Assembly: GCA_947642475.1 (NCBI GenBank)
Contig: CANRSQ010000007.1
Coordinates: 1 to 37,947 of the forward strand
Reading direction: 5' to 3'
DNA: 37,947 nucleotides
Origin: an uncultured Mycoplasmatota bacterium
GTDB lineage: Bacteria; Bacillota_I; Bacilli_A; RF39; UBA660
Under the pieces are notes generated by a model that saw only the letters and a program-made list of their open reading frames with translations, was not told the origin of the DNA and ran no database searches. The number at the start of each line of letters is the position of its first letter. Position 1 is the first letter of the stretch. This document shows, piece by piece, positions 6,743 through 15,980 of the stretch. Made by a program: the position numbers and the translations under genes.

Positions 6743-7105
6743 ATGGGAAGACCAAAAGGTGGAAAAAATGTAATGAGAACACCTGAAGAAAAAGAAAAAA
6801 TTTTACTAGAGTATTTAATAAATCATAAACCGCTGACAGAAATAAGCAGTGAATACAATATAAATTTGCGATTATTAAAGAGATGGAAAAAGAAATATTT
6901 AGAGAATGGAATAGAAGGATTACAATCACTATCAGGAAAACAATCAAAAGGTAGACCTAAAAAAACATTAACTAGAGAAGAAGAATTAGAATTGAAAATA
7001 ATGAAGTTAGAAATTGAGAATGAACGATTAAAAAAAGGTTATATAGTGAAAGGAGATGGGGCTGCAAAGGAATACGTTACTACATTAGACAAGAATACGA
7101 AATAA
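6743..7105 (+). CDS. IS3-family transposase OrfA
   Basis: 120 residues. Starts M-G-R-P-K-G-G-K-N, followed by a helix-turn-helix (about 20-60: L-T-E-I-S-S-E-Y-N-I-N-L-R-L-L-K-R-W-K-K-K-Y), a basic linker, and a leucine-zipper-like helix (about 82-104). It binds the IS ends. Near its 3' end is the heptamer A-AAA-AAA followed by G (7030-7037), a classic -1 frameshift site. OrfB is in the -1 frame and open from 7024, so the expected active product is an OrfAB fusion. Confidence 0.9.
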   Translation: MGRPKGGKNVMRTPEEKEKILLEYLINHKPLTEISSEYNINLRLLKRWKKKYLENGIEGLQSLSGKQSKGRPKKTLTREEELELKIMKLEIENERLKKGYIVKGDGAAKEYVTTLDKNTK

Positions 7106-7113
7106 TTGATAAT

Positions 7114-7962
7114 TTGAAAAATAAATATTCGATAACTGAATTATGCAAAATAATGAAAGTAAGTAAATCAGGATATTATAAATGGAAATACAGGAAAGAT
7201 AATCCAAGCATTAAAGAAATATCTAGACAAACTGAAATTAATTTAATAAAAGAGGTTCATAAGGAACATCCATCTCATGGATATCGATGGATAAATTCTT
7301 TTATTAGAAACAAATATGGTGTATTTATGACAGATAATCATGTTCACCTATGCTGCAAGTATGAAAACATACGCTCACAAGGAAAACATTATCAATGGAA
7401 AAAACCAGGTGAAGAACAACAAAAATTTAATAATTTGGTATGGAATGGTTGGAAATATTTATCTAGACCGTTCGAGGTCATTGTTTCCGATATGACTTCA
7501 TTTTGGGTAAAAGGTACCTATTACGAATTAACTTTATATTTTGATGCATGGAATAAAGAGATTGTTGGTTATGGATTAGCTTCTAGGAAAGGAGCTATAT
7601 CATCATATTATGATGGCTTAAATCAAGTTCTTAATCGCATAAAAAAAGAACAAACTGAAGATTTGATTATTTTGCATACGGATCAAGGTTCAGTTTATTC
7701 GTCTGCGAGTTATAATAAACTCATTGAAGATTATAACATAGAACGTTCGATGAGTCGAGCTGGTACACCTACAGACAATCCAGTTAATGAATCATTAAAT
7801 GGCTGGATTAAGGAAGAATTAATGATTGATTTTAATTTAAAGAAATGTGATAATGTCCCAAAACTTATCGAAGAATATATTTATTATTACAATAATGAAA
7901 GACCATCATGCGCGTTAAATTATAAAACCCCAATTCAATATAAAATTGAATCAGGGTTTTAA
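7114..7962 (+). CDS. IS3-family transposase OrfB (DDE integrase domain)
   Basis: 282 residues if begun at the TTG at 7114, but the frame is open upstream from 7024 and gives the conserved R-Q-E-Y-E-I-I-D-N-L-K segment, so it is probably made as a fusion by -1 slippage at 7030-7036. After a small helical domain (S-G-Y-Y-K-W and H-G-Y-R-W-I) comes the rve catalytic core with D in V-S-D-M-T-S-F-W, D in H-T-D-Q-G-S-V-Y and E in N-E-S-L-N-G-W-I-K-E-E. All three catalytic residues are present. The ORF ends exactly at the start of the right inverted repeat. Confidence 0.93.
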   Translation: MKNKYSITELCKIMKVSKSGYYKWKYRKDNPSIKEISRQTEINLIKEVHKEHPSHGYRWINSFIRNKYGVFMTDNHVHLCCKYENIRSQGKHYQWKKPGEEQQKFNNLVWNGWKYLSRPFEVIVSDMTSFWVKGTYYELTLYFDAWNKEIVGYGLASRKGAISSYYDGLNQVLNRIKKEQTEDLIILHTDQGSVYSSASYNKLIEDYNIERSMSRAGTPTDNPVNESLNGWIKEELMIDFNLKKCDNVPKLIEEYIYYYNNERPSCALNYKTPIQYKIESGF

Positions 7963-13907: not shown

Positions 13908-13936
13908 TTGACAAAGTAAAAAAAATAGTGTAAATT
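13908..13936 (+). promoter_or_regulatory. Promoter of the leader RNA / M20-GNAT operon
   Basis: TTGACA (13908-13913), 17-bp spacer, TAAATT (13931-13936). It is the only promoter I see for the M20 and GNAT genes, and a terminator lies between it and them. Confidence 0.75.
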
Positions 13937-13966
13937 ATGTAACAAGCCGAAGAAAGGGAGATTCAA

Positions 13967-14008
13967 ATGAAATTATTTCAAACAAACAATCGCAGACGCT
14001 TAAGTTAG
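13967..14008 (+). CDS. 13-codon upstream ORF (leader peptide)
   Basis: Encodes M-K-L-F-Q-T-N-N-R-R-R-L-S. AAAGGGAG (13953-13960) lies six bases before the ATG, as good as any ribosome-binding site in the window. The three consecutive Arg codons (CGC AGA CGC) fall on the P2 5' strand; CGC looks rare among the surrounding genes. An R-R-R run also fits the +x+ pattern known from macrolide-stalled leader peptides. Either Arg starvation or drug-induced stalling could be sensed; both are speculation. Confidence 0.6.
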   Translation: MKLFQTNNRRRLS

Positions 14009-14100
14009 TACTTGTCGGAAACGAAAAAAATTCGTGGATGCAAGTACTGTTTGTGTTGCTTGTATCTGCGAGGTAAATAATTTCATTCAAATAAATTATG

Positions 14101-14131
14101 AAACCTATGCATATACAAGCATAGGTTTTTA
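14101..14131 (+). terminator. Leader terminator upstream of the M20 gene
   Basis: AACCTATGC / GCATAGGTT followed by T's. It is 25 bp before the M20 start codon with no promoter in between. ATGAAA just before the stem can pair with TTTCAT of the P1 3' strand, a weak possible link between the two folds. Confidence 0.8.
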
Positions 14132-14155
14132 AATTATAAAACGAGGAGAATAAAT

Positions 14156-15229
14156 ATGGAAGATAAACAAAAAGAAATACTAGAAACACTAAAATATTTA
14201 ATCAATTGTCCAGGCGTATCAAAAGACACTAAAACAACCAATAAACTATTAGATGAAATAAAACAAAATATTCCACAACATTTATATACAAAAAAATATG
14301 AATTTGATGGCTTTGGATCATTAGTTATTTCAAACACCAAAGAAGAAGACTTCGACCTCGTCTTTTGTACACACATAGACGTTGTTCCATGTGAAGAATA
14401 CAAATACACCGAAGATGAAAAAAATGTTTATGGCCGTGGTTCATTTGACATGAAAGGACAAGTCGCTGTTTGTTTAACTTTATTTAAAGAATTACGGACA
14501 GATAAAAAAGTCGCACTGTTTATAACTAGTGATGAAGAAATTGCTGGTAACTGTGCCAAAAAGTTAGTTGATATTTATCCAAATATTAAATTAGCTATAA
14601 TCCCAGACGGTGGAAAAGACTTTAATTTAATAGAAGAAGAAAAAGGGCAACTACAAATAAAGCTATCAGTTAAAACTAAGACCACGCACGCTTCACAACC
14701 ATATAATGGCGTAAATGCAATTACTGCTTTATATGATTGTTACACAAAATTATTAGAGAAGTATCCATTACCTGAAAGCAGTAATGATTATAAAACATCT
14801 ATTGCTTTAGTTAAATTAGTAGGTGGAGATGCTTTAAATCAAATCCCAGGAGATGCCCAGATGTATTTAGACATCCGTCATACTTCAACCGATAAAAAAG
14901 AAGACTTTTTAAATCTTATCAAAGAAATAAACCCAGAAATAGAAATAGAAATTATGACCGCTGGAAATGCATTTGTTACTGATGTCAATAATCCAAATAT
15001 CAAAATGTATTTAGATATGTGTAAAGACGTTTTAGGATATATGCCAAAAATAGTTAAAACCGAAGCCACATCAGATGCAATTTATTTCTCTGATAAAAAC
15101 ATTCCGACAGCTTTAATGAATCCAATAGGTGATTACATGCACTGTCCGAATGAATATGTTAATAAAAAATCATTATTAGATCTATATAAAATTTATGAAA
15201 AAATATTGAAAGAAGGAATGATAAAATGA
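14156..15229 (+). CDS. M20-family metallopeptidase (ArgE/DapE/ACY1-type deacylase or dipeptidase)
   Basis: 357 residues. Zinc-dependent amidohydrolase fold. Visible metal and catalytic residues: T-H73-I-D75, G-R-G-S-F-D98-M-K-G, and D126-E127-E128; a dimerisation domain lies between (K-T-T-H-A-S-Q-P-Y-N-G-V-N-A). Family members deacylate acetyl-ornithine or succinyl-diaminopimelate, or cleave dipeptides; motifs alone do not choose. The Arg-rich upstream ORF would fit an arginine-related role such as ArgE, but that is only suggestive. It overlaps the GNAT gene by four bases (ATGA). Confidence 0.88.
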   Translation: MEDKQKEILETLKYLINCPGVSKDTKTTNKLLDEIKQNIPQHLYTKKYEFDGFGSLVISNTKEEDFDLVFCTHIDVVPCEEYKYTEDEKNVYGRGSFDMKGQVAVCLTLFKELRTDKKVALFITSDEEIAGNCAKKLVDIYPNIKLAIIPDGGKDFNLIEEEKGQLQIKLSVKTKTTHASQPYNGVNAITALYDCYTKLLEKYPLPESSNDYKTSIALVKLVGGDALNQIPGDAQMYLDIRHTSTDKKEDFLNLIKEINPEIEIEIMTAGNAFVTDVNNPNIKMYLDMCKDVLGYMPKIVKTEATSDAIYFSDKNIPTALMNPIGDYMHCPNEYVNKKSLLDLYKIYEKILKEGMIK

Positions 15230-15918
15230 TGAATGATTTATGGAAAATAGATACCGTTAAAAAAATTGATGAAAATGGAAATTATATTGGATATGTAAAA
15301 CCAGTTACTGAATTTGAAGATTTTTCAGATGTTATTGATGTATTTAAAGAACCACCATATGGTGAGCCATTAACAATGGAAGATAAAATAGAAGAATATA
15401 ATAGTTATATCGATCATGGACTTGCACTAGGTTACTATACACCAGAAGGCGAAATCATGGGCTACATTGGACTTTTAGAAGAAGTTGAAGATGAACATAA
15501 AGAATATTTCCACGAAAGTATTGATAGTTTAAAACCTCTATATGTATATGGAGTTGCCACTAAAAGTAAATTCCGTGGTCATGGCGTTGCTACAACTTTA
15601 ATCACTGCAACCCAAACTCACGCTATAAATGAAGGTACTGACTTCGTTTATTGCAGAATAAACCATAAAGACTCTATGTCTGAAGGAATCTTCCGTAATA
15701 CTGGATACGGCGACTTATATCAAAATGGCGAAGTAGTATTCCAAGATATTTCTGATCAAGCATTCAGAATAAGTGAAGAAACAGATCCAGAAGGTAACTT
15801 AAAAAGATTTTTAATCGTACCAATTACCGAATATGGAAAAGAATTCTTAACTTTAACTGGTTCAATCCCATCAGAAACTAAAACAGTATCTAATGAAAAA
15901 GTATTAATCAAAAAATAA
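15226..15918 (+). CDS. GNAT-family N-acetyltransferase
   Basis: 230 residues. The acetyl-CoA-binding motif A is Y-V-Y-G-V-A-T-K-S-K-F-R-G-H-G-V-A-T-T-L-I (near residues 105-125), followed by an N-x-x-D-S-M-S-E-G-I-F-R-N-T-G-Y-G segment typical of motif B. Substrate unknown. It starts inside the M20 stop; a second ATG at 15229 is an alternative. Pairing of an acetyltransferase with a deacylase in one operon suggests acetylated amino-acid metabolism (inference). Confidence 0.85.
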   Translation: MMNDLWKIDTVKKIDENGNYIGYVKPVTEFEDFSDVIDVFKEPPYGEPLTMEDKIEEYNSYIDHGLALGYYTPEGEIMGYIGLLEEVEDEHKEYFHESIDSLKPLYVYGVATKSKFRGHGVATTLITATQTHAINEGTDFVYCRINHKDSMSEGIFRNTGYGDLYQNGEVVFQDISDQAFRISEETDPEGNLKRFLIVPITEYGKEFLTLTGSIPSETKTVSNEKVLIKK

Positions 15919-15952: not shown

Positions 15953-15980
15953 TTGACTTTTATATATAAAATACTATAAT
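15953..15980 (+). promoter_or_regulatory. Promoter of the AI-2E-type transporter
   Basis: TTGACT (15953-15958), 16-bp spacer, TATAAT (15975-15980). Confidence 0.75.

Follow-up and report, generated by a model that had tools for sequence, protein, structure and literature searches.

An operon encoding an M20 metallo-deacylase and a GNAT acetyltransferase in an uncultured Mycoplasmatota bacterium (RF39; UBA660), a gut bacterium with a small genome, is very probably preceded by a his-type ribosome-mediated transcription attenuator that senses the supply of arginyl-tRNA. The operon lies in a window of 37,947 nt, the whole stretch of DNA that was analysed (assembly GCA_947642475.1, contig CANRSQ010000007.1). 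A preliminary description of this DNA had suggested an attenuator reading the position of the ribosome through a short ORF coding for R-R-R, and that suggestion is now supported by homologues, by synonymous Arg codons, by covariation in competing helices and by simulated folding. The attenuator model draws on sequence, conservation, covariation, the matching of leader codons to downstream genes and switching in silico, from which we infer ribosome stalling and readthrough in the cell.

A candidate attenuator leader ahead of the M20-GNAT operon

The features of the leader and of the operon are the following (window coordinates, strand, description).

13908..13936, +, predicted operon promoter, TTGACA-17-TAAATT, 10/12 consensus match
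13951..13961, +, ribosome-binding site of the leader ORF, AGAAAGGGAGA, seen in the sequence, with a comparable purine-rich site in homologues
13965..13978, +, 5' strand of helix P1, covering the start codon, with its 3' strand at 14075-14087; homologues show both one-sided and two-sided changes
13967..14008, +, predicted leader ORF of 13 codons, MKLFQTNNRRRLS; stop UAG at 14006-14008; RRR in 16/16 distinct Arg leaders
13990..13996, +, segment A, the Arg-codon strand; predicted to pair with D (14065-14071) as helix P2 when the ribosome is absent
13991..13999, +, sensing codons CGC AGA CGC (Arg 9 to 11), 18-23 nt upstream of CTTG in segment B
14008..14014, +, segment B, GUACUUG, 5' strand of helix P3, starting at the leader stop codon; pairs with C
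14036..14048, +, segment C, GGAUGCAAGUACU; partner of B or of D
14057..14073, +, segment D, the antiterminator strand, UGCUUGUAUCUGCGAGG, also the 3' strand of P2; assigned by D:E duplex energy
14101..14130, +, terminator hairpin E:F with U tract; arms 14101-14110 and 14119-14128
14104..14121, +, segment E, CCUAUGCAUAUACAAGCA, terminator 5' strand and loop; partner of D
14156..15229, +, M20 metallo-deacylase, ArgE/DapE-like (PF01546)
15226..15918, +, GNAT acetyltransferase (PF00583), overlapping the M20 gene by 4 nt

The preliminary description had placed a promoter upstream of the leader, a very good ribosome-binding site ahead of the short ORF and an R-R-R run within it, and all three are present. 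The TTGACA of the promoter-like pair is found at the equivalent site in homologues of the genus; the ribosome-binding site is strong; and RRR is encoded in all homologues of the genus. Judging from the sequences, a short leader ORF with its start, stop and ribosome-binding site is conserved in homologues. A second promoter was sought between the terminator and the M20 gene, where the preliminary description would have taken one as evidence against its own proposal, and none was found; the M20 start codon lies only about 26 nt past the terminator, which leaves no room and makes a separate promoter there unlikely. The gene 3' of the operon has its own promoter-like site at 15953 (11/12).

Seven other genomes of the genus carry homologues of the leader DNA. 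Each homologue precedes the same M20 gene, and the predicted peptides include, besides MKLFQTNNRRRLS of the window, MKLFQVNVNNRRRFS, MKLFQMNNRRRCQ, MKLLQINNRRRCR, MKLFLVNNRRRCS and MKIFMTNIIRRRRCHKHLRKR. The Arg codons vary between CGC, CGT, CGA and AGA, Arg itself being kept. An alignment of homologues, which the preliminary description had proposed as a check, thus revealed R-R-R kept through synonymous codons, together with covariation (see below). The leader and the M20 gene occur in the identical 8 of 44 genomes of the genus and therefore travel as one module.

Competing helices in the leader RNA

The folding energy of the whole leader is -54.3 kcal/mol, whereas shuffled sequences average -32.2 (z = -6.2), and none of 200 dinucleotide shuffles was as good; the nested part folded alone gave z = -3.4. 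The nested helices P1 to P4 of the preliminary description are all present, with the correction that P2 comprises 7+2 pairs in the predicted fold and not 6, and the strong terminator said to end the leader is found as a hairpin at 14101-14128. Two points had to be revised. The alternative to the terminator, previously regarded as a weak pairing, is the D:E duplex of UGCUUGUAUCUGCGAGG with CCUAUGCAUAUACAAGCA, which has 16 pairs and an energy of -19.8 kcal/mol; D:E and the terminator E:F share the stretch 14104-14121 and are mutually exclusive. A further helix, C:D, in which GGAUGCAAG (14036-14044) pairs with CUUGUAUCU (14058-14066), had been overlooked. In simulated folding, C:D sequesters the antiterminator strand while a ribosome is at the stop codon.

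RNAalifold, applied to the homologues of the genus, recovered P1, P2, P3 and the terminator, with nine pairs in which both sides had changed; two-sided changes affect four pairs of the terminator in the genus set. The competing helices also covary. Two-sided changes were observed at 3 of the 7 pairs of B:C among the 93 leaders of the wider family described below, and at 4 of the 8 pairs of C:D. For C:D, the arms of the same locus scored 7.78, compared with a mean of 7.42 and a maximum of 7.56 for exchanged arms, the own arms being better in 500/500 trials. Averaged over 35 loci, D:E reached -15.8 with the own D segment and -6.6 with a shuffled one. P1 covering the start codon is seen in the Arg class of leaders.

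The same scaffold carries His, Arg or Cys codons

A covariance model (R1) was built from eight Arg leaders only and run on 385 genomes of the order. It returned more Arg leaders and, unasked, His-rich leaders such as MFKLVINKFNHHNSLHLLIRH, whose downstream genes include hisS (histidyl-tRNA synthetase) and hisG. The set was enlarged with a core model (R2) and an exact-pattern scan of GTDB species genomes, giving 93 distinct leaders: 76 His, 16 Arg and 1 Cys. One locus parsed automatically as an Arg leader (L174) had been given a wrong start codon, and the true ORF there is a His leader. When R2 was run on genomes sampled class-wide and phylum-wide, matches beyond the window's family were chance matches only, mostly inside genes.

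His leaders precede hisS (24 cases), hisG (5), a histidine racemase gene (2) and one clade of M20 genes (6), as well as a GNAT-like gene (8), a peptidase-looking gene without Pfam match (7) and a gene for a small unknown protein (22). Of the 16 Arg leaders, 14 precede a single M20 clade that is not the one found behind His leaders; members of the two clades are on average 27% alike, and the figures inside the clades are 57% and 66%. The distribution of his genes and of the Arg-leader M20 clade between leader classes gives a Fisher P = 6e-12, a value not corrected for relatedness. The tRNA-ligase genes found downstream agree with the leader codons: hisS follows His leaders, a cysS fragment follows the Cys-Cys leader MLLYRNTCCMKSMHLSL (L185; one case), and the Arg leader MKNIINLIRRRYK (L059/L203; one case) heads an operon composed of a B3/4-domain gene, a small gene and argS (TIGR00456, 356 bits for a cut-off of 262). 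In every class, about 20 nt separate the first sensing codon from segment B downstream of it (18-23 nt for Arg, mostly 20 for His, 20 for Cys).

The small protein that comes first behind 22 His leaders (L171, L172, L143, L127 and others) has about 82 aa (KGIVFSNDIKRILNG...) and no Pfam match. As hisS sits a few genes further on in several of its loci, these are probably histidine-related operons. The racemase genes behind the His leaders L124 and L135 encode relatives of histidine racemase (NF052224, CntK; below the cut-off over the 70 residues scanned for L135). At L113 (G422:C28), where the leader has no segment D, the hisS gene behind a His leader is seemingly split by another reading frame that looks HTH/transposase-like by eye. 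Two related leaders before M20-like genes, L111 (MKKMIINNTWRHIGNTYTDQI) and L116 (MRKTIINNAWHHMGNTYTYR), have few or no repeats of the key codons and could be either degenerate His leaders or sensors of something else. Behind the Arg leader of L045 (MKIFMTTIIRRRRLRRHLRTR), at L204 (G403:C1), are three consecutive genes of about 300 aa, the first without Pfam match. Finally, a weak relative of the scaffold, L115 (G249:C1, 2955-3060, minus strand; E = 0.0024), encodes the peptide MYTNKTIMYTC ahead of an ABC-F gene and may either sense a drug or resemble the scaffold by chance.

Predicted switching by ribosome position

In the simulations, the RNA 3' of the ribosome was folded with the A site set on each leader codon in turn. 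The terminator of the window leader has a predicted probability of 0.98 without a ribosome. With the ribosome at Arg 9 the value is 0.22 and at Arg 10 it is 0.21, returning to 0.97 from Arg 11 as far as the stop codon. When the ribosome edge was varied from +9 to +15, at least one Arg codon stayed low, and the probability was 0.99 from Leu 12 on. Values were also low to middling with the ribosome at codons 5 to 8, so that the switch marks a stretch including the Arg codons and not the Arg codons alone.

With equilibrium folding, the dip spans the Arg or His codons in most of 35 loci; several of them (L004, L067, L049, L056) show no dip and keep the terminator at every ribosome position. Since equilibrium folding under-reports the switch in several loci, RNA truncated before the complete terminator was folded as well. 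In 30 of the 35 loci, D:E at the first two sensing codons then exceeded its level at the stop, and in 33 of them its level without a ribosome. Because the loci are related, P values overstate independence. The window leader itself keeps D:E in nearly all states of the truncated RNA, the ribosome-free one included, so timing must matter there. Shuffling of D abolished the drop in terminator probability, from 0.48 to 0.01 in the Arg class and from 0.23 to -0.03 in the His class. In silico, a ribosome on the sensing codons is thus predicted to favour readthrough and a ribosome on the stop codon to favour termination.

Some His leaders are predicted to read through without a ribosome, both at equilibrium and with truncated RNA. 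The A:D helix is strong in the Arg class (mean -12.4 kcal/mol) and slight in the His class (-5.2), so that termination is expected of a folded Arg leader that is not being translated, and readthrough of some His leaders.

Operon genes and host metabolism

The M20 protein falls below every curated NCBIfam cut-off, its best subfamily being TIGR01910. By eye, an acetyltransferase-like ORF follows the M20 gene in most Arg loci, as the GNAT gene does in the window. No argH was found in the genome (assembly 91% complete), and argG appears only as a sub-threshold partial match; the organism therefore probably cannot make arginine from citrulline. The simplest reading is that the M20 enzyme would release arginine from some acylated or peptide form of it, and we give roughly equal weight to its helping and its not helping to supply arginine. 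In the window itself, the Arg codons can be tied to the function of the M20-GNAT genes only indirectly. Eleven T-box matches lie elsewhere in the genome, so the attenuator family works beside T-boxes.

An Rfam search with the window and the homologues returned no family at threshold. It gave no match to a stand-alone RNA such as 6S, a match that the preliminary description had named as speaking against an attenuator, and the T-box covariance model (RF00230) had no match in the leader. Matches to the trpB motif and to L10 were weak and were judged to reflect chance or analogy.

Elsewhere in the window (6743-7962), two frames between a truB-like gene and rpsO resemble, by eye, an IS3-type transposase pair.

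Discussion

In the enteric his attenuator, segments A to F form alternative structures, with B:C and D:E giving readthrough and C:D and E:F giving termination. The leader described here has the same chain of B:C, C:D, D:E and E:F pairings, a run of regulatory codons in the leader peptide and a stop-codon ribosome placed to mask B; it differs in its Arg codons and its genes, and has no known sequence relation to the enteric system. When arginyl-tRNA is scarce, a ribosome would wait at Arg codons 9 and 10 and cover segment A, leaving B free; B would pair with C, D would become available for E, no terminator would form and the M20-GNAT operon would be transcribed. When arginyl-tRNA is plentiful, the ribosome would reach the stop codon and mask B, so that C:D and E:F would form and transcription would end. 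The fold would act on the terminator through the long antiterminator D:E, as the folding models suggest. In the absence of a ribosome, the Arg-codon strand would hold D (P1/P2), with termination and a closed start codon; here A pairs with D around B:C, whereas A pairs with B in the enteric attenuator.

The operon might serve defence and not supply. An ArgRS-inhibiting or arginine-like compound would raise uncharged tRNA-Arg and open the attenuator, and the M20 and GNAT enzymes would then destroy or acetylate the compound. It deserves to be taken seriously, since a His leader (L060) too is followed by an M20 gene and an acetyltransferase-like ORF. Peptidase-acetyltransferase combinations are among the known self-immunity pairs, which the operon recalls, and the module is accessory (8/44 genomes). 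However, the loss of argG and argH also fits plain arginine scavenging, and a regulon including hisS, hisG and argS points to supply and charging; we consider defence possible, if on the whole unlikely.

In both cases the signal would be tRNA-Arg. A macrolide-inducible R-X-R drug sensor of the tlrB type appears improbable. To our knowledge, M20 and GNAT genes are not macrolide resistance genes, and no ribosome-protecting or rRNA-modifying resistance gene lies downstream. R-R-R does fit the R/K-X-R/K stalling motif, and the weak scaffold relative L115 sits before an ABC-F gene. The tlrB leader peptide, MIIQFIRYR, works by R-X-R (PMC6851288), and ketolides are described as favouring Arg/Lys-X-Arg/Lys (PMC8298421). 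The tlrB/yxjB leader of Bacillus subtilis likewise controls termination through a short R-X-R leader peptide; unlike the present leaders, which precede M20-GNAT and tRNA-ligase genes, it senses tylosin, has a resistance gene downstream and includes an extra translational step (PMC6851288). Charged tRNA-Arg is most likely the signal sensed, rather than a drug, because the codons on the same scaffold agree with the genes behind it: His for hisS and hisG, Cys for cysS and Arg for the operon containing argS.

A riboswitch or protein-binding leader with an incidental ORF is highly improbable. One such candidate would be a relative of the trpB motif (RF04312), an orphan RNA that likewise has an antiterminator in its P1 (PMC11109978) and gave a weak full-length match (30.5 bits, E = 0.013 on 261 nt). 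That score is far under the family's gathering score (59), not one of the 10 homologues that were tested attains even E = 1, and the ORF, the key codons and the codon spacing are conserved. The two leaders are alike in having the right shoulder of a hairpin as antiterminator, followed by a terminator, ahead of amino-acid genes, and the authors of the trpB study leave a classic attenuator open for that motif (PMC11109978).

In Bacillus, His leader peptides have been predicted ahead of hisZ and of a hisS paralogue (Naville and Gautheret 2010, PMC2965389). Like the His class described here, these are leader-peptide attenuators of Firmicutes ahead of hisS-type genes; no Arg or Cys version is reported among them, and in the sampled genomes of the class and phylum R2 found no true relative outside the window's family. 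In a literature search that covered few subscription journals, we found no Arg-codon attenuator of argS or M20 genes and no earlier report of the Arg-codon and Cys-codon versions. Attenuation of this type is a known class of mechanism. What appears to be new is the RNA family, together with its Arg and Cys versions and the fixed slot at which codons are exchanged.

For most such amino-acid sensing, the elements known from Firmicutes are T-boxes, and descriptions of leader-peptide attenuators usually deal with a single operon. We lean towards the reading that the scaffold has spread within one bacterial family as an exchangeable sensor beside T-boxes, by a swap of codons (His, Arg, Cys, perhaps others) at a fixed slot that places unrelated genes under a chosen charged tRNA, and that its Arg version controls an accessory M20-GNAT module, scavenging or inhibitor-destroying, in genome-reduced arginine auxotrophs. 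The homologous family keeps its RNA frame, while the amino acid sensed would change with the downstream gene. It offers a clean test, namely whether or not a three-codon swap retargets a natural attenuator. The sensing codons would also serve as a label predicting which amino acid is served by uncharacterised genes, such as the M20 clades, the acetyltransferases and the small proteins, and such a label may be useful in uncultured gut bacteria, where genetics is hard.
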